A stretch of DNA of 64,000 bases from Geothrix sp. (GTDB taxonomy: Bacteria > Acidobacteriota > Holophagae > Holophagales > Holophagaceae): NCBI RefSeq assembly GCF_030219325.1, contig NZ_CP126625.1, forward strand, positions 2,220,857 through 2,284,856, in the 5' to 3' direction. Numbering within the stretch: position 1 is the stretch's first letter; the number at the start of each line of letters is the position of its first letter. Below are positions 2,480 to 47,076 of this stretch, piece by piece. The translations under genes were made by a program, and so were the position numbers. The notes beneath the pieces were generated by a model. The model did not search any database. It was not told where the DNA came from and saw only the letters and a program-made list of their open reading frames with translations.

Positions 2480-4759
2480 TCACTGCGTCACGAAGTAGAA
2501 CTGGAGATCACAGTCCGTACGATTGGCCACGGCAAACAGATCCCAGCCCAGCCATCCGGTTCCGCTGTTGAACTGGGCGTAGCCATCGGCAAAGTAGGTG
2601 GTGGCCGGGAAGCCGTAGACGTTTCCCTTCTCGAGGGCATGGGTCGTGTGGACCGTATCCGCGGGAGAGCTGAGCACGAGGTGATAGCCCACACCTGCCT
2701 GAAGGGTCAGGGGCGTTCCGAATTTGACCGAGACCCACGCTTCGTTGGCGGAAGTGCTGCCGGCGCCACCCAGCGGGACCAGCACGGTGCCCTGGCCGAC
2801 CAGGGTCCCATCCGACTTCTCGATCGTGACGGTGAGGGGGCTGGATCCGCTGATCCGGTTGGCCCGCACGTTGATGGCTGTCACGGTGCGATCGACGCCG
2901 GAGACGGTGAAGGTCTCACGCACGGACTGCGTCCCTGAGATCGGCTTGGGGTTCACCCATCCGCTGGTGCTGGTCTGGCCAAAACCCTGGATGTAGCCCT
3001 GTCCCTGAGAGGCACCATCTCCGTAGGTCAACTGGATGGTGGGAGAGTAGCTGTGCGTCGATCCTCGGACGAAGGCGACCCATGCGCCAGCCGTGTTGGT
3101 CTCAAGCAGGCCCAGGTCTGTGTTCGACACCAGGGGCTGGGTGGATGTGCAGGCATTCCACATGAAGAGATGATCAAGGGAGATGTAGTTGACCGTGGGA
3201 TCCGCGTCCACGTTGGTGAAGACGACGTGGTAGAGCTGACCGGCAGTGAGGTTCGCCGGATTGGAGAAGGTCAGCAGGGGGAAGTAGTTGCCAATGGTGA
3301 TCGGCTGATTGTACTGAAGGGAGGCGAGCACGGTGCCAGAGGGGAGGTGGTTGCTGGAACCATCGTCCGTCTGGATCTGGATCACGATGTTGCCGCCGGT
3401 GCCCGCGCCGTAGCCGCCCTTGACGGTGCTCCAGATGAACTTGGGGCGAATCGATGTCAGGGTCCCGCTGTGCGTTGCGCGCACGCGGATGCTGGCCTTC
3501 CGGTTGACGGTATCCACGGAGCTGTTCCAGCCGATGACCTGATTTCCCAGGTCATCCGCATTCAAGCCGGATCCGTAGAACCCGGCGGTCTGGGCCGGGA
3601 CCGTGAGGACAGCAATGCTTTTCTGGGCGGAGGCGCTGATGGAGGAGCTGTTGGTGACGGTGCAGCCCAGCAGCAGGGTGCCCGCACCGCCCGCCGTGAA
3701 GGCAAGGTTGGTGGTTCCCTGGCCAGCACTGATGGTGCCGCCCGTGATCGTCCAGGCATAGGTGCAGTTGGACTGCGCCGGGATGCTGGCGAGGTTGCTG
3801 GTGGACTGGGCATTGACCTGGGAAGGGGCCGTGATGACGGGAGTCGCCGGAGCCGAGGCGACCACCTGGACCTGAGCTTGACTGCTGCTGTTGCCGACGC
3901 TGTTGGTTGCCATGCAAGTCAGGGTCAGGGTTCCAGCAGATCCCGCAGTGAAGGTCACCGAAGTGGAACTCGCTCCCGCGGTGATCGTGCCATCGACGAT
4001 GGTCCAGCTGTAGCTGGTGCTGCCCTCGGGCTGGGTCACGCTGGCCACCAGATTGGTCGCGCCCACGGTGGCACTGGTGGGGGCGGTGATCAGGGGAACC
4101 GCTGGAAGGGTGCCCTGGACCTGGACATGAGCGGTACTGCTCAAAGTCTGGGTGCCCGAGGTGGCCCGGCAGGTGAGGGCCAGCGTTCCGGCCTGGCCGG
4201 CCGAGAACGACACCGAGGTTCCGGTGGTCGGGCCCTGGATGGTGCCTCCGCTGATGCTCCAGGCATAGGTCGCGAAGGATTGGGGGTTCGTGGCACAGGC
4301 TGAAAGCCCCGTGGCGCCGGCGAGGGCCGTGGCCGGGGCATTGATGGTGGGTGTCTGAAGCGTCTGGTGATGGATGCGGATGGGTGCGGTGGCGGTCTTG
4401 GTGGTATCCGTGACGCTGGTGGCGGCCAGCAGATGGGTGCCCTCGGTCCCAGGGGCCGTGTAGGTCACGGTGTTTCCGCTCCCGCTGATGGTGCCGACAT
4501 CGGGATTGCCGTTCTGGATGCCGTCCACCAGCCAGGTGACGGCGGGGTTGGTGGTGCCGCTGACCTGGGCCGTCACGGAGAGAGGGTCCCCACAGATGGC
4601 GTCGGCGGGAGCCCCGGTCAGGCTCACGTTCACGGTCGCGGCCGGCGGCGTGGAGGTGCTGCCCGACCCCTTGGTGCCGCCCCCCCCACAAGCTCCTTGA
4701 ATGAGCAGTCCGGCAATGGCCAATCCCTGAAGTGTGTTGATGAAGTTTCCGATTCGCAT
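2480..4759 (-). CDS. Large secreted Ig-repeat lipoprotein (paralog 1)
   Basis: 759 aa from ATG 4759, preceded by GGAGGA at 5-nt spacing; an ORF extending further upstream lacks a site. The N-terminus MRIGNFINTLQGLAIAGLLI is a signal peptide ending in QGAC-GGGG, a slightly non-canonical lipobox (Q at -3), followed by a Gly/Ser linker. One bacterial Ig-like domain comes next, then three repeats of about 85 aa, each built on I-x-A-P...Y-x-W-x-I...G-T-I...F-x-A-G-x-A-G-T-L. The C-terminal region of about 370 aa (from FYGSGLNADDLGNQVIGWNS) is shared with the paralog at 7620-9608; I recognise no family. No catalytic motif is visible. Likely a cell-surface or outer-membrane-anchored adhesin or binding protein. 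It lies downstream of an NtrC-type regulator and has a sigma-54-like promoter (4783-4797), so it is the probable target of that regulator. Confidence 0.8.
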   Translation of the reverse strand: MRIGNFINTLQGLAIAGLLIQGACGGGGTKGSGSTSTPPAATVNVSLTGAPADAICGDPLSVTAQVSGTTNPAVTWLVDGIQNGNPDVGTISGSGNTVTYTAPGTEGTHLLAATSVTDTTKTATAPIRIHHQTLQTPTINAPATALAGATGLSACATNPQSFATYAWSISGGTIQGPTTGTSVSFSAGQAGTLALTCRATSGTQTLSSTAHVQVQGTLPAVPLITAPTSATVGATNLVASVTQPEGSTSYSWTIVDGTITAGASSTSVTFTAGSAGTLTLTCMATNSVGNSSSQAQVQVVASAPATPVITAPSQVNAQSTSNLASIPAQSNCTYAWTITGGTISAGQGTTNLAFTAGGAGTLLLGCTVTNSSSISASAQKSIAVLTVPAQTAGFYGSGLNADDLGNQVIGWNSSVDTVNRKASIRVRATHSGTLTSIRPKFIWSTVKGGYGAGTGGNIVIQIQTDDGSSNHLPSGTVLASLQYNQPITIGNYFPLLTFSNPANLTAGQLYHVVFTNVDADPTVNYISLDHLFMWNACTSTQPLVSNTDLGLLETNTAGAWVAFVRGSTHSYSPTIQLTYGDGASQGQGYIQGFGQTSTSGWVNPKPISGTQSVRETFTVSGVDRTVTAINVRANRISGSSPLTVTIEKSDGTLVGQGTVLVPLGGAGSTSANEAWVSVKFGTPLTLQAGVGYHLVLSSPADTVHTTHALEKGNVYGFPATTYFADGYAQFNSGTGWLGWDLFAVANRTDCDLQFYFVTQ

Positions 4760-4782
4760 TGGGTCCTCCGCAGCTGACTGAG

Positions 4783-4797
4783 GCAACGGGGGTACCA
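4783..4797 (-). promoter_or_regulatory. Sigma-54 (-24/-12) promoter for lipoprotein 1
   Basis: On the minus strand the sequence TGGTACCCCCGTTGC matches the RpoN consensus (TGGCAC-N5-TTGC) with GG and GC separated by exactly 10 nt. The predicted start point near 4771 lies just before the GGAGGA ribosome site (4769-4764) of the gene starting at 4759. The adjacent upstream gene encodes a sigma-54 activator with GAFTGA, which makes the assignment coherent. Confidence 0.65.
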
Positions 4798-4905
4798 CTG
4801 GAAAGCGATCAGATCACAACAGGTTAAACAACATGTTACGAGCATTAACAAATGCCGATCCGGCCTCCGGAGGGGCCTGGGGGTCGACCGTTTCTGAACC
4901 CTGGA

Positions 4906-4925
4906 TCCAGATTCTAGAATCTGGA
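4906..4925. promoter_or_regulatory. Perfect 20-bp palindrome, candidate activator site
   Basis: TCCAGATTCTAGAATCTGGA is a perfect uninterrupted palindrome that contains the stop codon of the NtrC-type regulator. Its centre is about 120 bp upstream of the -24 element of the lipoprotein 1 promoter, within the normal range for sigma-54 enhancer sites. It lacks a loop and a T-run, so a binding site is more likely than a terminator. Role inferred. Confidence 0.4.
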
Positions 4926-6269
4926 CGGCGCGGTCCCATAAGTCTTGAGCTTCTGGTAGAGGGTGCTCCGGGGGATGTCGAGCCGCTTGGCGGTCCGGTC
5001 CACATGGCCGCCCTCTTCGTTCAGGACCTGGAGGATGTAGTCCCTTTCCAGCTCTTTCAGGGTCAGGTTGGCCGCCCCCCCCGGCTTCGGACCGCCCGGA
5101 CTAGAGGCGAAATCCAGGTCCTGCGCCTCCACAATGGAGGACTTGGCACCCATCAGGGCCCTTTCCAGCACATTGCGCAGCTCACGGATGTTCCCCGGCC
5201 AGTGATGCTGCCTGAGTTTCATCAGGGCGCCCTGGGAGAGGTGCATCGATTCGCGGCCGCAGTCGCTGGTCAGGCGGTTGAGGAGGACCTGGCTGAAGGT
5301 GAGGAGGTCCTCGGCCCGCTCGCGCAGCGAGGGGACGAAGATCTGGATGGCGCTGATGCGGTAGAAGAGGTCGGATCGGAACCGCTGCTCCTGGACAAGT
5401 TGATCCAGTTTCTGGTGGGTGGCGGCAATCAGGCGGAAGTCCACCTTGCGGTCATGGACTCCCCCCAGGCGGCGGAACCGTTTCTCTTCCAGCGCCTTGA
5501 GGACTTTCGGCTGGATCTGCAGGTCCATATCCCCGATCTCATCCAGGAAGACCGTGCCGCGGTGGGCCGCCTCAAGCAGGCCGACCTTGTCGCTCGAGGC
5601 GCCGGTAAACGCGCCCTTCTCGTGCCCGAACAGCTCGGTCTCCAGGAACTCCTTGCTGAAGCCCCCGCAATTGAGCTCGAGCATCGGCTCGGAGGCCCGG
5701 GAGCCGTTCCGGTGCAGCCAACGGGCCAGCTCGCTCTTCCCCGTGCCCGTTTCGCCCTGGATGAGGATGGGGCTCTCGGTCGCGGCGGCGAGGCGGCACT
5801 GCTCCTCCAGGCGGTGGATGGCGAGGCTCTGGCCGATGAACGGATCCACCGCCCGCTGGGGCTGGTTCACGGACTCGCGGGCCAGCTGCTTCCTGCGATT
5901 CTGCTGGTTCTCGAGTGCCCGCTCGATGACCAGCAGGAGGGCCGGAAGGTCCAGCGGCTTCACCAGGAACTGCTCGGCCCCCAGCTGGATGGCCCGTACC
6001 GCGAGTTCGATGCTGGCATGGCCCGTCAGCAGGATGATGGGCACCCGCGAATCAATGGCCTTCAGCCTCGGGAGCAGCTCGAGGGCATTCCCGTCGGGAA
6101 GGGAGTAGTCCAGGGTCACGGCATCGTACACGTCGGCGCGGTACCGGATCTCGGCCTCGGCGCAGGTCTCCGCCTCGTCGACGGTGAACCCCAGGAGCTC
6201 CAGGTAATCGCGGATCGCAAAAACGATGATCTCATCATCGTCGACGACCAGGATTTTCGCTTTCGCCAT
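4914..6269 (-). CDS. NtrC-family sigma-54 response regulator
   Basis: 451 aa with three domains. The receiver (1-120) has acidic residues D10-D12 and phospho-acceptor D54 in VTLDYSLPDG. The AAA+ domain (about 145-370) has Walker A GETGTGKS at 172-179 and the sigma-54 contact loop GAFTGA at 219-224. The C-terminal Fis-type helix-turn-helix ends in TAKRLDIPRSTLYQKLKTYG. It should activate RpoN-dependent promoters when phosphorylated. The gene follows the sensor gene at 6310 with a 40-nt gap and precedes lipoprotein 1, whose upstream region has a sigma-54 promoter and a palindrome. Start ATG 6269 is preceded by GAGGG. Confidence 0.92.
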   Translation of the reverse strand: MAKAKILVVDDDEIIVFAIRDYLELLGFTVDEAETCAEAEIRYRADVYDAVTLDYSLPDGNALELLPRLKAIDSRVPIILLTGHASIELAVRAIQLGAEQFLVKPLDLPALLLVIERALENQQNRRKQLARESVNQPQRAVDPFIGQSLAIHRLEEQCRLAAATESPILIQGETGTGKSELARWLHRNGSRASEPMLELNCGGFSKEFLETELFGHEKGAFTGASSDKVGLLEAAHRGTVFLDEIGDMDLQIQPKVLKALEEKRFRRLGGVHDRKVDFRLIAATHQKLDQLVQEQRFRSDLFYRISAIQIFVPSLRERAEDLLTFSQVLLNRLTSDCGRESMHLSQGALMKLRQHHWPGNIRELRNVLERALMGAKSSIVEAQDLDFASSPGGPKPGGAANLTLKELERDYILQVLNEEGGHVDRTAKRLDIPRSTLYQKLKTYGTAPSRF

Positions 6270-38341: not shown

Positions 38342-39076
38342 TCATGGCGATTCGAGCTCGAGGTATTCATCCGGGATGCCCAGGCCATTCAGGTTGAACT
38401 TGAGGAAATGGGTCACCAGGCGGGGCAAATCGTCCTCGTGGCAGGGCGGCTCATTCAACACCCGGGCGAGGATGTCCTGGTGGCAGAGGAAGAACAGCAG
38501 CTGTGCATGAATGCTCATCCCCATCCGCACCATCCCGTCATGGTCCAGGTCGGACCTGAGGACGCGAAGGCAGCGGTGCAGGTAATCGATGTGTGGCTGG
38601 ACCGCTTCCAACAGGCTGCCCATGGATTCTTCCGGGGGGTAGATCATGGTCTTCGCGATCAGCACCAGGACAGCTCGTTCCAGCTCGGGATCCTTCTCGG
38701 GTGGGAGGCTGGAATGGAGGCGGAGACTCATCCGGATGAATTCATGAATGTAGGCACGAAGGGCGTTGACCGCTTGTCGAAGCACCGTGGATCTGCCGGC
38801 AAACGGCCCCACGGGCAGTGGCGGCATGGGCAGGGTCTTGGCAGTGTGCTTCGCCATGCGAGCGGCGAGATGGAGCGCGGCGGCATGCAGGCCGGCTTTC
38901 CCTCCGAAGTGGAACGAGATGAGGCTGCTGTTCACACCTGCGGCATCGGCGATTTCCCTGATCGAGGCCCCCTCGAATCCCTTCTCGGCAAAGGTCCGTA
39001 TGGCTGCCTTGAGCAGCAGCATGCGGGAATTGGTGGTTGGCGAGGTCATTTCCTGCTCATCTCTGGGCATGGTCAT
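38342..39076 (-). CDS. TetR-family repressor of the RND pump
   Basis: 244 aa. The N-terminal helix-turn-helix reads LLKAAIRTFAEKGFEGASIR, then EIADAAGVNSSLISFHFGGK, typical of TetR/AcrR. The long ligand-binding half resembles the CerR/CecR group. The start overlaps the stop of the RND/TolC fusion gene (ATGA) with GGAGGT upstream, so it is the terminal gene of the efflux operon and probably its local repressor. Confidence 0.88.
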   Translation of the reverse strand: MTMPRDEQEMTSPTTNSRMLLLKAAIRTFAEKGFEGASIREIADAAGVNSSLISFHFGGKAGLHAAALHLAARMAKHTAKTLPMPPLPVGPFAGRSTVLRQAVNALRAYIHEFIRMSLRLHSSLPPEKDPELERAVLVLIAKTMIYPPEESMGSLLEAVQPHIDYLHRCLRVLRSDLDHDGMVRMGMSIHAQLLFFLCHQDILARVLNEPPCHEDDLPRLVTHFLKFNLNGLGIPDEYLELESP

Positions 39077-42000
39077 GGGTTCACACCTCCACCGAGTAGC
39101 CGATCCAGCTCGGCACGAGTGAGATCGAGCCCCAGGCGTGCGGCCAGGAGATCGGCTTCAGCAGCCCTGGCCTCCGCATCCGCTTCCACTTTCCTGGAGG
39201 CTGGAACCAGTCCCGACTGATGCTGATTCCCGGTCAGTCGCGCCTTTTCGACGTTCATGGCACATGCCTCTTCGGCGGCCTCTGTCAGGAGGCGAGCTGT
39301 CTCCAATTTCCGGAGCAGCTTATCGAGGTCGATCTCAGTGCGGTTGCGGACCCGGTCATAGTTGCTTGAAGCCTGGCTCACGAGGGCGGCACGCTGATTG
39401 ACCACACCGGATCGCCTGCCCCAATCGAGGATGTTCCAGGTCAGGGAAAGGCCATAGGAGGTGGAGTTGGCCTGGACGAAGGGGAGCCCATCCTGATGGG
39501 TCTGCCGGACGAACGCACCAACTTCAGGGATGTATTCGGATTTTCCGGCCTTGAGGGCGCTGCGGCTCTTGTCGACCGACGCCTGGGCAACGGCCAGATC
39601 TGGATTGGATTTCCGGACCTGCTCCAACATCGCTTCGCGCTCAGGAAGTGGCCGTGAATCGGGGGAAACCGGAGCCAGGTCCAGGGGCGTCTGAAGGGGG
39701 TCGCCCATCAGGTCGTTGAGTTCCGATGTGAGATCCGCGGCGGTGGCCTGGGCGGCCAGCAGCTTGTGGCGATTCTGGAGGAGCTTGGCCCGGCTCCCGG
39801 TCTGGAGCACCTTCAGGGCATTGCCTGCCTTGACCGCTTCCTTGGCATCCAGGTCCTGCTGTTCGGCTGCGGCCACGCCGGTCTGGGCAGCCTTGATCTG
39901 GGCCTGGGCAATGAGAAGACCGAAGTAAGCCTGGCGCGTCAGGTAGGCGATGTCGGTTTCCATCTTCCGCAACTCGGCCTTGGCTCCCCGCTCCTCCGCA
40001 GAGGCCACTTCGTTCCCGTGGCTGATCTTGAAGAGCTGGGTAAGAGGCTGGCTCAAGGTGATGTTCTGCACGAAGAGATGGGTCTTCCCCTGGCCCAGCT
40101 TGGCGTCCTGGCTCGGGAAGGGACCCATGCCGGGTACGTCACCCAATGATCCGGCCGGAATGGTCATGAACGGCTGGTCGTTGCGCTTCAACCAGGTGGC
40201 GTCCGTTGAAAGCTGAGGGAAATAGTCGGCTCGCGCCGTGCGTTTCTTCCCCAAGGCCTCTTCGACCTTGGCACGGGCGATGCGGACTCCCGCGCTATGG
40301 TCCAGGGCGCTGGCCACGGCGCTCTCGAGGGTCAGTCGCTTGGATTCCGGCGCCCCTGCACTAAGCGGGGAGGCCAGAGCCAGGGCCAGGAGGGCCATCG
40401 GGATGACTGAGGCCACGCCGCTTCCAGTGGGTGAATTCTCCTTGGGCCGGAACACGAGCACGTAGATGACGGGGACCACCAGGAGCGTGAAGAACATCGA
40501 GAAGATCAAGCCGATTGCCAGCACGCTGGCCAGGGGACTCCACATTTTCGAGCCCGAGAGGATCATGGGGGTGACGCCCACGGCGGCGGCCATGGTAGTG
40601 AGGAAGATGGGGCGAAGCCTTCGCTCGCCTGCCATGGTGGCGGCCTCTACAAGGGGAATCCCCTCGTGCAGCTTCTCCTTGATGTAGTCGATGAGGATGA
40701 TGGCATTCCGGACCACGATGCCGCAGAGGCTGATCATGCCCATGAAGGCCGTGAAGCCGAAGGAATTGCGGGTGATGAGGAGGCCAAAGGCCACTCCAAA
40801 CAGCGAAAGAGGAATGGAAGTCATGACGACCAGGGGTTCGGCCAGGTTACGGAACTGGATCATGAGGATGAGGAAGATGGCCACGAGGCTGATGCCGAGC
40901 GCACCCACCATCTCGGGCTGCGTCTCTTCCTGGTTGGCGAACTCGCCACCCAGTTCGAGGTGGTAGCCGGGAGGAAGGGCGATGGCCTTCACTTTCGGCA
41001 GGGCGTCCTTGAGGATGGCCGAGGCGTAGGTCTTCGGAGCCTGGAGGCAGCGGACGGTCAGGGTGCGCACACCGTTCCTGCGCACGAGGCGGCTGGTCTG
41101 CCACGCGGGAGTGAGATCGGCGATGGCCCGCAGGGGCACCTTCTCGTTGGAGATGGAAGAACCCACGTACGTGTTCCGCACATCATCGAAGCTGGCGCGG
41201 TGGGCGGGGTCGACCCTCAGGACGATGTTCACGGCCCGGTCCCCCTCCCAGAACGTGCTAACGGGCGCGCCGTCGAAGGCGCCGTTGAGGAGGTTCGACA
41301 CGCCCATGTGGGTGATGCCCAGGCGGTTGGCCAGCTCCGTATTGAGGTCCACGTTGACCATGGGGGAGTCGTTCCGGTAGTCGGTGTGGAGGAACTGGGC
41401 CCGGGGGTCCTTCTGGAGGATGCCGCCGATCTGCTCGCCGATGGCTTTCAGCTTTGCCTCGTCATCCCCGGAGATCCGGAATTCGATGGGGGCTTCCATC
41501 ACGGAGCCCTGCTGGAGTTCCTGCACCAGCACCATGGCCTCGGGCGTCAGACGCGCCAGGCGCGTTCGGAGTTCTGCCACGAGTGCCGTGGTGGCCTTCA
41601 CGTCCACGGTGTTCACGATGAACTGGCCGTAGGCAGGATCGGGCTGCTGGGGGTTCACGTTGTAGTAGAAGCGGGGGGAGCCCTGTCCCACAAAGCCGGC
41701 GAGGTGGGTCACCCGCTTGTCGTGGAGGAGCTCGCTCTCGATGCGCTTCATGGTGGCGTCCGTGGCCTCGATGCGGGTCCCCTGGGGCATCCAGAGGTCG
41801 ACGACGAACTGGTTGCGCTCGGCGTTGGGGAAGAACTCCTCGGGGACGAACCGGAACAGGAAGGCGCCCAGGACGATCCCCGCCACACCCAGCCCGACTG
41901 CCAGCATGGGTTTGGCCATGAAGTAGGTGATGGCCTTGCCGTAGGCGACCTGGAGGAGGTCCAGGGCGTTGAACTTCTTCGCGTGCTCCGTGGGTTCCGC

Positions 42001-43503
42001 ATCGTGGTCGTGCAGGCCCTGGTGGATGAAGGTCCGGCAGAGCAGCGGGGTTACGAAGATCGCCACAAGGAAGGAGACGGTGAGGGACACTGCCACGGTG
42101 ATGGGCAGGGCCAGGATGAACTCGCCGGAACTGCCGGTGAGAATGACCAGCGGCAGGAAGGAGGCGATGATCGTGAGGGTCGCGGTCAGCACCGGCACGA
42201 GCACCTCCGTGGCGGACCGCCAAGCGGCTTCGGCCCGCGGAACCTTGTGGTCCAGCAGCTCCACGTAGTTGTCGGCGATGACGATGGCGTCGTCCACGAC
42301 GATGCCGAGCACCACGATCAGGGCCGCGATGGAGACCTGGTGGAGCTGGATCCCGACGGCATTCATGACCGCGATGGTCGTCAGCATGGTCGTCGGGATG
42401 GCCAGGGCGGCGATGAGCGAGACCCGGAAGGGCAGCAGGAGGACCGTCACGACGATGACGCAGCCGATGGCGATGAGGAACTCACGGCCCATGTGGGACA
42501 TCCGCTCTTGCACAACCTCCGGCTGATTGCAGATGTAATCCAGGTGGAGATCAGGCGGGAGGAGGGGCTTGACGCGCTGGTTGAGCACCTCGGTGACCTT
42601 CTCACCCATCTCGACCATGTTGCGCCCCTTTTGCATCTCCACGGAGATCATGAGGGCGGGCTTGCCGTCGTAGCGCACCATGAATTCCGGATCCTGGTAA
42701 CGCCGCTCCACATTGGCGAAGTCGCCGATGTAGCTGGGCTGCCCGGTCGGGGACTGGCCGACCATCATCTTCTTGATCTGGTCTTCCGTGTTGAACAATC
42801 CGGTCGTGTGGAGGGGGATCTTGCCGTTGTCCGTGCGGGCGCTGCCGGTGGCCTGGACTTCGTTCCTCTGGTTCAGCGCTCCCGCGATCTGCCGCGGATC
42901 CGTGAAGTACTGACTCATGCGCTCGAGGCTGCTGGTCACCCAGATCTGTTCGTTCTGTCGGCCGTAGACCGCGATCTTCCCGACTTCGGGCACGCTGCGC
43001 AGGGCATCCTGGATGGTGTCCACGTAATCGCGGAGCTCCCGGTAGCCATAACGCTCCCCGCTCACGGAGATGAGCATGGCCACGGTGTCGCCGAAATCCG
43101 AATCCACCACGGGTCCCATCACCTCGCGCGGCAGCTCCTGGGCCCTCACCAGGTTCATCTCGTGGCGCAGCTTGGCCCAGAAGACATCAGGATTCTTGAC
43201 GTTCTTCTCCAGCTCCACGTTGATGATCGCGATGCCGGGGCGGCTGGTCGAGTAGGTCTTCTCCTTGCGCACCTCCTGAAACTTGAAGATGTGGGATTCG
43301 AGGGTCTTGGTGACCTGCTTCTCCACCTGTTCCGAGGTGGCCCCGGGATACATGGCGGCGACGATGCCGGTCCGGATGGTGATGGTGGGATCCTCAGTGC
43401 GAGGCATACCCATCAGGGCGTGGATGCCCAGCGCCACGGCCATGATGACGAGAATGGACGTGATGGTCGGGTAACGCAGGAAAGCTTTGATGGCTGTCTT
43501 CAT
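39073..43503 (-). CDS. RND efflux permease fused to a TolC-like outer-membrane factor
   Basis: 1476 aa in one frame. Residues 1 to about 1022 are a full RND permease with 12 membrane helices, two large periplasmic loops, TM4 acidic residues in IVVDDAIVIADNYVELL, and TM10 motif GIVVRNAIILIDY; it resembles the multidrug (HAE) type. After a short linker (RPKENSPTGSG) comes a signal-peptide-like segment (about 1030-1048, MALLALALASPLSAGAPE). The remaining 430 residues are an outer-membrane efflux protein with two coiled-coil repeats (LTLESAVASALDHSAGVRIA; SNPDLAVAQASVDKSRSAL). Cleavage after the internal signal would release a normal TolC-like protein. An internal GTG at 40416 with GGAAG before it could also start it separately. 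The adaptor lies just upstream, TetR just downstream. Confidence 0.92.
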   Translation of the reverse strand: MKTAIKAFLRYPTITSILVIMAVALGIHALMGMPRTEDPTITIRTGIVAAMYPGATSEQVEKQVTKTLESHIFKFQEVRKEKTYSTSRPGIAIINVELEKNVKNPDVFWAKLRHEMNLVRAQELPREVMGPVVDSDFGDTVAMLISVSGERYGYRELRDYVDTIQDALRSVPEVGKIAVYGRQNEQIWVTSSLERMSQYFTDPRQIAGALNQRNEVQATGSARTDNGKIPLHTTGLFNTEDQIKKMMVGQSPTGQPSYIGDFANVERRYQDPEFMVRYDGKPALMISVEMQKGRNMVEMGEKVTEVLNQRVKPLLPPDLHLDYICNQPEVVQERMSHMGREFLIAIGCVIVVTVLLLPFRVSLIAALAIPTTMLTTIAVMNAVGIQLHQVSIAALIVVLGIVVDDAIVIADNYVELLDHKVPRAEAAWRSATEVLVPVLTATLTIIASFLPLVILTGSSGEFILALPITVAVSLTVSFLVAIFVTPLLCRTFIHQGLHDHDAEPTEHAKKFNALDLLQVAYGKAITYFMAKPMLAVGLGVAGIVLGAFLFRFVPEEFFPNAERNQFVVDLWMPQGTRIEATDATMKRIESELLHDKRVTHLAGFVGQGSPRFYYNVNPQQPDPAYGQFIVNTVDVKATTALVAELRTRLARLTPEAMVLVQELQQGSVMEAPIEFRISGDDEAKLKAIGEQIGGILQKDPRAQFLHTDYRNDSPMVNVDLNTELANRLGITHMGVSNLLNGAFDGAPVSTFWEGDRAVNIVLRVDPAHRASFDDVRNTYVGSSISNEKVPLRAIADLTPAWQTSRLVRRNGVRTLTVRCLQAPKTYASAILKDALPKVKAIALPPGYHLELGGEFANQEETQPEMVGALGISLVAIFLILMIQFRNLAEPLVVMTSIPLSLFGVAFGLLITRNSFGFTAFMGMISLCGIVVRNAIILIDYIKEKLHEGIPLVEAATMAGERRLRPIFLTTMAAAVGVTPMILSGSKMWSPLASVLAIGLIFSMFFTLLVVPVIYVLVFRPKENSPTGSGVASVIPMALLALALASPLSAGAPESKRLTLESAVASALDHSAGVRIARAKVEEALGKKRTARADYFPQLSTDATWLKRNDQPFMTIPAGSLGDVPGMGPFPSQDAKLGQGKTHLFVQNITLSQPLTQLFKISHGNEVASAEERGAKAELRKMETDIAYLTRQAYFGLLIAQAQIKAAQTGVAAAEQQDLDAKEAVKAGNALKVLQTGSRAKLLQNRHKLLAAQATAADLTSELNDLMGDPLQTPLDLAPVSPDSRPLPEREAMLEQVRKSNPDLAVAQASVDKSRSALKAGKSEYIPEVGAFVRQTHQDGLPFVQANSTSYGLSLTWNILDWGRRSGVVNQRAALVSQASSNYDRVRNRTEIDLDKLLRKLETARLLTEAAEEACAMNVEKARLTGNQHQSGLVPASRKVEADAEARAAEADLLAARLGLDLTRAELDRLLGGGVNP

Positions 43504-43505
43504 GG

Positions 43506-44585
43506 CTACTTGCTCCCCTGGACGGCTTCTGCGCCCATGCCGTTACGCAGCGAGTTCTGTCCGGCCACCACGATGGACTCGTTCCCGGCGAGGCCGGAGC
43601 GCACCTGGATGCTGCGCCCGTACACGGCGCCCACTTCCACGCGCTTGGAGTAGACCCGTTGCTGGTCGGGGAAGTAATGGAACACCTGGGTGGCGCCCTG
43701 CGGGTCGCGCACGATGGCTTCGGATGGAAGGGTGAGCATGTCCAGGTGCTGCGCCCCGGTGATGGAGACCTCGGCGACCATGCCGATCTTGAGCTCGCGT
43801 TGAGGATTGGGGACGCTGACCCGGGCCATGTAGGTGCGCGTCGCCGGGTCGGCCGAGACGTTCACCACCCGCACGGTGCCCTGGAAGGAACGGCCAGGCA
43901 GCGCGGGGATCGTGATCGAGGCGGACTGCCCCACCTTCACAAGCCTCACATCGGTCTCAGGAATTCCGACGTTCACCTCGATGGGGTCCAGCTGCGCGAT
44001 TTCGAAGACGGGCTGACCCGCGCCCACCATGACGCCAGGCTCCAGCATCCGCCGCGCGATGAAGCCATTGATGGGCGCGACAAGACGGGCCTCGGCCAGG
44101 TTCTTGCGAGCCACGCCTTCCCCGGCGATCGCCTGCTGAAGCTGCTGGCGGGAGGCATCCCGGGCGGCGGTGAATTTCGCGAAATCGTTGGGCGCCAGGC
44201 TCTGGCTGTCGAACAGCTGCCTCATGCGGCGGAATTCCTGTTCGGCCTGGTCTGCGCCTGCTTTAGCGGCCGCCACCTGGGCACGGGCGGCTTCCAGGGC
44301 ATGGGTGAGGTTTTCGGAATCCAGGGTGGCGAGGGTCTGTCCCTTCCTCACCGGCTCGCCTTCCCGCAGAAGGACCTGGATCGCCCGACCCGGTACCTGG
44401 AAAGCCACCATGGAAGATCCACCCTGGGGCATCAGGGTGCCGCTCACGCCGATGCGTTCGAGTTCCTGGACCCGGGTGGGCTGGGCCACCACGATGTTGG
44501 CCTTGGCGGATTCGGCGGCTTCCCGATGGGTTCCGCAGGCCAGGATCAGGCAGAGGGGAGAAAGGATGAGAAGGTTGCGTTGCAT
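43506..44585 (-). CDS. RND periplasmic adaptor (membrane fusion) lipoprotein
   Basis: 359 aa from ATG 44585 (AGGAG 5 nt upstream). The lipobox LILAC follows a short signal peptide. The biotinyl-lipoyl halves are GRAIQVLLREGEPVRKGQTLATLDSE and RLVAPINGFIARRMLEPGVMVGAGQP, flanking a coiled-coil hairpin (AARAQVAAAKAGADQAEQEF). Beta-barrel and membrane-proximal domains follow. It would bridge the pump and the TolC-like part of the protein encoded 2 nt downstream. It is the second gene of a sigma-54-type operon starting with a STAS gene. Confidence 0.93.
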   Translation of the reverse strand: MQRNLLILSPLCLILACGTHREAAESAKANIVVAQPTRVQELERIGVSGTLMPQGGSSMVAFQVPGRAIQVLLREGEPVRKGQTLATLDSENLTHALEAARAQVAAAKAGADQAEQEFRRMRQLFDSQSLAPNDFAKFTAARDASRQQLQQAIAGEGVARKNLAEARLVAPINGFIARRMLEPGVMVGAGQPVFEIAQLDPIEVNVGIPETDVRLVKVGQSASITIPALPGRSFQGTVRVVNVSADPATRTYMARVSVPNPQRELKIGMVAEVSITGAQHLDMLTLPSEAIVRDPQGATQVFHYFPDQQRVYSKRVEVGAVYGRSIQVRSGLAGNESIVVAGQNSLRNGMGAEAVQGSK

Positions 44586-45244: not shown

Positions 45245-46540
45245 TCAGAACTGGAAGGGATGCCCCACCATCATCTGCACTGCGGTCTGCTCCGGGGAAT
45301 GGACGAAATCGACCCGCGCGATCAGGCCCTTGACCTGGAACCGCACACCCAGCCCGACATCCCATTTGAGGGCGCTGGACCACTGCACAAACTGCCAGGA
45401 AGGGGCGACCCGGCCCGCCTCGACGAAGGCCACAAACTGGACCCATTGAACGCCGATCCGGCGCTGGATCCAAGGCAGGTGCTCGAAGGGATTCCAGGCT
45501 GGAATGACGCGGTACTCTGCTGCCGCGCAGGCGGCGGCCTTGTCGCTGAAGCGCTCGGCGGGATAACCGCGCAGGCGCCACAAACCACCCAGGGTGGCAC
45601 CTGCGTAGCCCGGGGGGCCATGGCGAACGGTGCCGTCCGGATTGGTTTCCCAGGTGGGCGAATAGGCCGTCCAGACATCCAGGGCCAGCACCTGTTGGCG
45701 GATCACTGCAGACTGGGCGAGGGGGTGGTACCAGTCAGCCTCCCCTTCCACCACGGTCCAGGAGCCAGAACTGCCGACCGCGCCCCAATCACGTGAGACC
45801 CGGACGCGCATCGATCCGCCCCGGGTCGGGTTGTCCGGGTAGTCCCGGTTGTCCCAGAAGATCGATCCATCCAGGCCGCTGGTCCGGCGCGTGGAGTGGA
45901 TGTCGGCCTCAGAGCTGGCCACCCGCAGGGAACGGTAGAACGGCTGCAGTTCCAGGAAGGTCTTCCCGCTCTCCAGGGGATTCCATGAATCCCCGCCGCT
46001 GGCTCCGGAGACCGGCAGGCCGTCCACGAACTGGTACCGACTGACGGTCTGGTCCCGGCCGTGCCCGAGGGGAAGCAGGTACTTGAACCGCAGCCGCGTG
46101 AAGGTGTCCTGGCCGCTGCCGGTGAGGTAGTTGTCCGAATGGGAATCGTTGCTGCCGGGGCGTTCGTTCGGGTAGGCCGGGTTTCCCCCCACGTAGGCGC
46201 GGTTGTCGGCGAAAGAGCCCAGTGAGACCCAGGGATCCAGGAACAGGCGCTCCGTGCCAGGCATCCGGATGTCACGGCCCATGAAAAAGCCCATCACCGA
46301 CCCCTTGCTGCCGGCCATGACCGTGGCCAGCACCCGCGCCTGCGGCTGGGGATAGCCAAACCGGAAGGTGCTGTAGCCTGCGGCCGCGCCAAAGAATTCG
46401 CTGTAGAAGGCGAAGGGCACGCTCACCGCCTGGTCAGTTTCGGCCGTCGCTGGGACCATCTGTGGTTCCTCGGCAGGCCCCGCGAAGGCGCAGGTGCAGA
46501 GCGCGCCTAGGAGCAGGGAGTGCAATGGCCGAATGAGCAT
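45245..46540 (-). CDS. Omp85/BamA-like outer-membrane barrel without POTRA domains
   Basis: About 431 aa from ATG 46540, which yields the signal peptide MLIRPLHSLLLGALCTCAFA-GP; TTG 46582, overlapping the lipoprotein stop, is the alternative. The body resembles the C-terminal bacterial surface antigen (D15) barrel: GFFMGRDIRMPGTERLFLDP, IFWDNRDYPDNPTRGGSMRV, and the loop L6-like LGGLWRLRGYPAERFSDKAA (RGY). It ends MMVGHPFQF with terminal Phe. No POTRA repeats precede it. It is likely an outer-membrane channel or lipoprotein partner and is coupled to the lipoprotein gene upstream. Confidence 0.75.
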   Translation of the reverse strand: MLIRPLHSLLLGALCTCAFAGPAEEPQMVPATAETDQAVSVPFAFYSEFFGAAAGYSTFRFGYPQPQARVLATVMAGSKGSVMGFFMGRDIRMPGTERLFLDPWVSLGSFADNRAYVGGNPAYPNERPGSNDSHSDNYLTGSGQDTFTRLRFKYLLPLGHGRDQTVSRYQFVDGLPVSGASGGDSWNPLESGKTFLELQPFYRSLRVASSEADIHSTRRTSGLDGSIFWDNRDYPDNPTRGGSMRVRVSRDWGAVGSSGSWTVVEGEADWYHPLAQSAVIRQQVLALDVWTAYSPTWETNPDGTVRHGPPGYAGATLGGLWRLRGYPAERFSDKAAACAAAEYRVIPAWNPFEHLPWIQRRIGVQWVQFVAFVEAGRVAPSWQFVQWSSALKWDVGLGVRFQVKGLIARVDFVHSPEQTAVQMMVGHPFQF

Positions 46541-46578
46541 ATGAAGGCGTCCGTGTCCAGGCGGGGGATGGCTCGGTA

Positions 46579-47076
46579 TCAATGCTTCGACATGGAGTCG
46601 GATGAGGTGTGGTCGACCCCGATATGAGGTGGCACGAGATCGAGGAGCCCCGCCAACGTGGGTTCATTCGCCACTCCCTGGATCGGATCGATCTGGTATG
46701 GAATTTCGGCACGCCCGGACCAAAGCTTCCGCGAGGTGGGTCGATCAAACATCTCCATGATCGTGATCCGAGAGCGGGGGGTTGGCTCCTCGGTGAAGGT
46801 GGTGAGGACGATTCGCACATCCGCTTCCTGATGCGGGGCCTGCTGGTAGCCCTTCTCCATGAGCCGGTCGGACACCAGTGACTTCAACTCGTCGAAGGGG
46901 ATGGGACGCATGTTCCAGATGTAGAGCGCGGGATCTGGCTGACCGTCGATGCTGAAAGTCCTCGAAGAGGTGAGGCGGTCCTTCTCGAGAGCGGTTCCCG
47001 TGAAATCAGGTCCCCGGCAGGACAGCAGGGCCTCGAGCAGGAGCAGCGCCAATAGAAATGCCACAAACCGGAGCAT
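46579..47076 (-). CDS. Lipoprotein paired with the Omp85-like barrel
   Basis: 165 aa from ATG 47076. The signal peptide MLRFVAFLLALLLLEALLSC ends in the lipobox ALLSC. The mature part has a segment LKSLVSDRLMEKGYQQAPHQ followed by EADVRIVLTTFTEE, resembling DUF4136-type lipoproteins (a conserved late D-x-x-V/I strand). Function unknown. It lies under promoter P2, and its stop meets the barrel gene, suggesting a periplasmic or outer-membrane complex of the two. Confidence 0.65.
   Translation of the reverse strand: MLRFVAFLLALLLLEALLSCRGPDFTGTALEKDRLTSSRTFSIDGQPDPALYIWNMRPIPFDELKSLVSDRLMEKGYQQAPHQEADVRIVLTTFTEEPTPRSRITIMEMFDRPTSRKLWSGRAEIPYQIDPIQGVANEPTLAGLLDLVPPHIGVDHTSSDSMSKH

Follow-up and report, generated by a model that had tools for sequence, protein, structure and literature searches.

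A candidate pump–channel polyprotein of Geothrix: an RND permease and a TolC-like outer-membrane factor in one frame, with fused relatives in three phyla

The fused gene and its operon

The window, that is, the whole stretch of 64,000 nucleotides of Geothrix sp. DNA that was analysed, belongs to a genome assembled as one contig of 3.73 Mb. The following features of its minus strand are considered here.

43506..44585, minus strand: gene for a periplasmic adaptor (RND_mfp) lipoprotein of 359 aa, ATG at 44585 (TIGR01730, E 2.9e-69)
43503-39073, minus strand: fusion open reading frame of 1476 codons, ATG at 43503, stop at 39075-39073, 0 internal stops
40450..43503, minus strand: RND permease part, residues 1-1018 (ACR_tran), 12 transmembrane helices, probably HAE1 type, TriC/MexK-like
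40357..40449, minus strand: junction, residues 1019-1049, with a basic linker, a hydrophobic core and a small-residue cleavage motif, assessed by alignments and by scores against controls
40414..40416, minus strand: GTG codon 1030, a candidate internal start preceded by GGAAGC
39076..40356, minus strand: outer-membrane factor (OEP/TolC-like) part, residues 1050-1476, two PF02321 repeats
38342..39076, minus strand: gene for a TetR-type regulator (PF00440)

The uninterrupted frame holds a complete RND permease and a full outer-membrane factor, as the initial annotation had proposed. In Pfam searches, ACR_tran covers residues 5-1017 and profile positions 2-1020 of 1021 (605.8 bits, E 1.8e-181), and the hydropathy plot of the permease half resolves twelve hydrophobic peaks, in agreement with the twelve helices first described. 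The OEP family (PF02321) is matched in two stretches from residue 1059 onward (152.8 bits), the better of which spans residues 1059-1267 (E 1.2e-44). When a profile of this half is compared with PDB chains, it matches VceC (1yc9, so named in PMC8277102), MtrE, TolC, OprM and CusC. An AlphaFold2 model of the last 517 residues, built from seven near-identical rows, reached a pLDDT of 49.8 and was set aside. The calculated mass of the whole fusion is 161.3 kDa, which replaces the 155 kDa given earlier, and a cut after A1049 would yield products of about 115.3 and 46.0 kDa in place of the earlier estimates of about 110 and 47 kDa.

The adaptor was expected to be a separate lipoprotein, and its gene is found directly upstream of the fusion, with a gap of 2 bp between the adaptor stop and the fusion ATG; its product begins MQRNLLILSPLCLILAC. 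At the other end, the TetR ATG overlaps the fusion stop by 4 bp. An adaptor homologue adjoins the fusion in 24 of the 25 loci examined, the exception being the truncated locus L035. With its adaptor gene in place, the locus is a tripartite RND efflux operon.

Two further features are located nearby. A gene for an Omp85-type outer membrane protein lies just upstream of the operon (45245-46582, minus strand; PF01103, E 1.7e-9), and the strand opposite the permease holds an open frame of 995 aa (40666-43653, plus strand). The antisense frame is probably a by-product of G+C-rich codons and bears no sign of being a gene.

Distribution of fused relatives

A search of 77 genomes of the family finds the gene, whole or in part, in 16 genomes including the window's, down to 57% identity. 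The Holophagaceae contain 12 complete one-frame fusions, the window's included, with 57-91% identity to the window protein. Within the genus, 8 of 47 genomes carry the operon (window included), which is therefore regarded as accessory. A survey of Acidobacteriota, suggested by the initial annotation, uncovered more fusions at the levels of family, class and phylum: searches of 93 genomes of the class and 396 of the phylum, in which at most two candidates were scored per genome, returned at least eight further complete fusions at 27-49% identity (L037, L044, L046, L047, L051, L057, L065 and L066), and the OEP part was checked with Pfam in three of these eight. At least four more, from Gemmatirosa kalamazoonensis and Persicobacter, are present among the 5000 best-scoring records of a protein-level search through 72,556 plasmids. 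In total, at least 24 complete fusions are distributed over three phyla, namely Acidobacteriota (Holophagaceae and others), Gemmatimonadota (Gemmatirosa) and Bacteroidota (Persicobacter). The Persicobacter and Gemmatirosa proteins, such as WP_338399011.1, share the architecture of the window fusion at 39-46% identity and fall in its clade, although they come from other phyla.

The 24 complete fusions together with four incomplete copies provide 28 junctions for comparison. Two of the incomplete copies (L021 and L024) are cut off by contig ends. A third, the same-genus copy L025 (G033; 61% identity), is intact through the signal peptide and then carries a frameshift in the OEP part, where the two frames meet near 4.8 kb; as the assembly is one contig, either genuine decay or an error may be the cause. 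The fourth, the truncated L026/L035 of Geothrix fuzhouensis, has kept just residues 916-1475, in about 1.68 kb, and is the remnant of a lost operon; a search of the locus for an adaptor found none.

Other Geothrix OEPs that sit in long stop-to-stop frames (up to 2093 aa) first looked like further fusions. In four fetched loci (L129-L132), the permease frames recognisable by eye differed from the long frame and overlapped it, and the long frames around these OEPs are taken as G+C-rich open frames.

Split relatives and the number of fusion events

The nearest unfused permeases (L048-L050, L052 and L053) are 39-41% identical to the permease of the window. In all five, the OEP gene follows directly, with a 4-bp overlap between its ATG and the permease stop, and its product begins with an ordinary signal peptide. 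These split adaptor-permease-OEP operons of Acidobacteriota place a signal peptide at the same point as in the window fusion, but their channel is a separate, overlapping gene. Because the split OEPs start with a signal peptide at the overlap, the fused gene would hold this old N-terminal signal internally, and from such an overlapping state a minor shift that abolished the stop and brought both genes into one frame would therefore suffice for fusion. In the Parabacteroides relative, TolC is likewise encoded separately, 42 bp further on. A Segatella hominis plasmid (L100, positions 2908-6096) encodes a permease relative at 35% identity with an adaptor; no OEP gene is among the annotations of that stretch, and this permease may use a channel from elsewhere.

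In a permease tree of 56 rows, the 25 fused rows occur in three places, and the OEP tree recovers the same three groups. Group A is the clade that contains the window protein together with those of other Acidobacteriota, Gemmatirosa and Persicobacter; group B comprises L037, L044, L057, L065 and L066; and group C is L051, which lies beside split relatives. Parsimony on the permease tree requires three changes, of which the starred branches force at least two. Topology tests reject a single clade uniting every fused row (p-AU 4.8e-63) and also one joining groups A and C (p-AU 9.2e-5), and both p values are optimistic because the groups were named post hoc from the tree and the trees were quick. 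Clade A has weak support (32) as one side of a branch. For group C, the tree is equally compatible with a gain in L051 and with a loss in its split relatives, and either may have occurred.

The junction as a signal peptide

The junction consists of RPKENSPTGSG followed by the signal-peptide-like hydrophobic segment that the initial annotation had pointed out. Among the 12 family proteins, mean pairwise identity drops from 90.2% over residues 985-1018 (34 residues) to 34.9% over residues 1019-1055 and returns to 62.8% over residues 1056-1095 (40 residues). Despite this divergence, the form of the junction is kept, with a basic stretch, a short hydrophobic core and a small-residue cleavage site. 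The sites read ARA|G and AFA|Q in Acidobacteriota and WG|Q and SG|Q in Persicobacter, and they look typical of their lineages.

Junctions were scored with a von Heijne-type matrix, using a threshold of 3.5. All 28 junctions exceed the threshold, which alone tells little because 267 of 286 transmembrane windows from the same proteins also pass. The distributions are more informative: the junctions have a median of 9.8, against 6.1 for the transmembrane windows, only seven of which (7/286) reach 9.8, and the 33 N-termini of separate OEPs, among which the window's own is counted, score 8.6. Median hydropathy over 19 residues is 1.91 for the junctions (n=28), 1.50 for separate OEP signal peptides (n=32) and 2.32 for transmembrane helices (n=300). 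The hydropathy of the junctions is thus intermediate. Taken together, the scores and the hydropathy make a cleavable signal at the junction likely, short of a proof from sequence alone. The cut is predicted near A1049|G1050, with an uncertain exact site because the best-scoring site of the window protein would put Pro at +1 and was judged unlikely; for two other proteins, L037 and L044, the highest score lies within the OEP part.

Whole, cut or separately initiated

The geometry of known pumps bears on whether the chain could work uncut. In MexAB-OprM, the membranes are 23 nm apart and 10 nm of OprM stands in the periplasm (PMC4754349). The first helix of an outer-membrane factor belongs to the equatorial domain, halfway up (PMC8277102), and profile positions 13-58 of the OEP half align to OprM residues 49-94. 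A tether from the inner membrane would accordingly have to span about 18 nm. The linkers of the 28 rows comprise about 9-25 residues, which is less than 9 nm when stretched; the motif finder that delimited them misfired in five rows (L025, L047, L065, L093 and L094), which were read by eye. An uncut chain would therefore not fit a normal pump, and either cutting or internal initiation would be needed.

Three other accounts of the gene were weighed against cleavage. That the chain stays whole and acts as a covalently tethered pump and channel gains something from the junction core, which over 11 residues matches the hydrophobicity of transmembrane helices (2.77 versus 2.75), so that by hydropathy it may be an uncut anchor. 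Such a tether would be much too short for the pump geometry set out above, and the preservation of cleavage-site-like ends across separate fusions also speaks against it; the account is very improbable. A sequencing error or decaying locus might be suspected from the broken copies in two relatives (L025 and L026/L035). For the window copy this is already refuted by its relatives, as 24 complete fusions keep a single frame at identities down to 27%, and hardly any credence is left for it. Specifically, the missed stop or frameshift that the initial annotation had named as its own refutation is excluded, because the assembly consists of a single contig and 12 family members, the window included, carry the complete fusion at 57-91% identity.

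The initial annotation had also offered initiation at GTG 40416 (codon 1030) as a source of equimolar pump and channel; in this account the channel would come from its own start, while some read-through would still give the full-length chain. All seven close Geothrix copies (86-100% identity to the window protein) have GTG or ATG at this point of a variable stretch, and GGAAGC (GGAAGT in one) stands just upstream of the codon in six of the seven. The start codon is not kept in the 61%-identical copy L025, however, and L017, L019, L037 and L051 have no ATG, GTG or TTG from helix 12 to the signal core, save inside helix 12. Nor do six Geothrix copies show the raised conservation of junction codons that an RNA signal might leave: only 1 of 13 degenerate codons for invariant amino acids is identical, compared with 38% gene-wide. 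Initiation at codon 1030 would also yield products in unequal amounts and would leave a full-length chain that still needs cutting. It is an unlikely main route, though a shade less so than the tethered chain, and could possibly operate as an extra in Geothrix, not in general.

Cleavage, the other route proposed for equimolar products, is best supported, through comparison and geometry, while the cut itself is deduced. The fact that separate fusions kept the form of the junction, with a single origin rejected, was counted in its favour. The gene thus quite probably encodes a polyprotein that signal peptidase I would cut into a 13-helix permease and a channel subunit, made 1:1. In the proposed sequence of events, the ribosome would make permease and channel as a single chain. 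The C-terminus of an RND permease is cytoplasmic, and the chain would be back in the cytoplasm after helix 12. The basic stretch and short hydrophobic core would then serve as another signal peptide, this time an internal one, and direct the OEP half to export by the Sec translocon, after which signal peptidase I would cut close to A1049. The permease of about 115 kDa would retain the signal peptide as its 13th helix, the mature channel subunit thus released (about 46 kDa) would assemble in the outer membrane, and the adaptor from the gene directly upstream would join the pump trimer to the channel trimer. Pump and channel trimers would be supplied 1:1 because both would be cut from one chain. 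Slightly more likely than not is the broader proposal that pump and channel were joined on three or more occasions, in different lineages, to give such a signal-peptidase-cut polyprotein with 1:1 supply and a 13th helix.

The architecture is already present in databases, annotated only as 'permease'; WP_338399011.1, for example, is listed as 'efflux RND transporter permease subunit' and nothing more. Such annotations in several phyla conceal a channel gene. A literature search of titles and abstract beginnings found no paper on RND permeases fused to an OEP or on bacterial pumps that are cut internally. New here are the fused relatives and their three groups, the 4-bp overlap in the split operons, and the argument from pump geometry. 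A recurrent polyprotein in which an internal signal peptide is kept makes a bacterial polyprotein route testable. If the broader proposal is true, bacteria would have a general way of building a machine that spans the envelope from a polyprotein. Such polyproteins would also supply assembly studies with efflux pumps whose stoichiometry is locked by nature.

Comparison with known systems

Among solved structures (PDB chains), residues 9-1023 of the fusion match 6vej (E 1.8e-139), which we take to be TriC, and MexK (E 6e-138) best. These Pseudomonas permeases of the HAE1 RND family share with the window protein the Asp-Asp pair in helix 4 (D404 and D405) and an Arg (R932) at the site of Lys940 in AcrB, but they stop after helix 12 and have no channel part. 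The multidrug model NF033617 is the best of the list for the window protein, at 509.8, below its curated cut-off of 1250. The TriC/MexK-type neighbours favour the multidrug (HAE1) character first assigned to the permease, and the permease subfamily and the TetR neighbour together suggest drug-type efflux as the probable function.

The initial annotation places comparable fusions in some heavy-metal RND pumps of Bacteroidetes (CusA/CzcA-TolC). They would resemble the window fusion in joining an RND permease to an OEP and differ in belonging to the heavy-metal family: the window protein (P0001) scores 345.5 with TIGR00914, below the cut-off of 701.45, and by this measure its permease is not a CusA/CzcA heavy-metal (HME) member. 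The Persicobacter fusions fall in the window's own non-heavy-metal clade.

A precedent for the proposed processing is fbcH of Bradyrhizobium japonicum, which encodes a cytochrome b/c1 precursor cut at an internal signal peptide, a cut that has reportedly been shown experimentally. As in fbcH, the window gene has a signal-peptide-like segment between two complete domains and would deliver two membrane proteins from one gene. The fbcH products, unlike those predicted here, are parts of a respiratory complex and both remain in the inner membrane.
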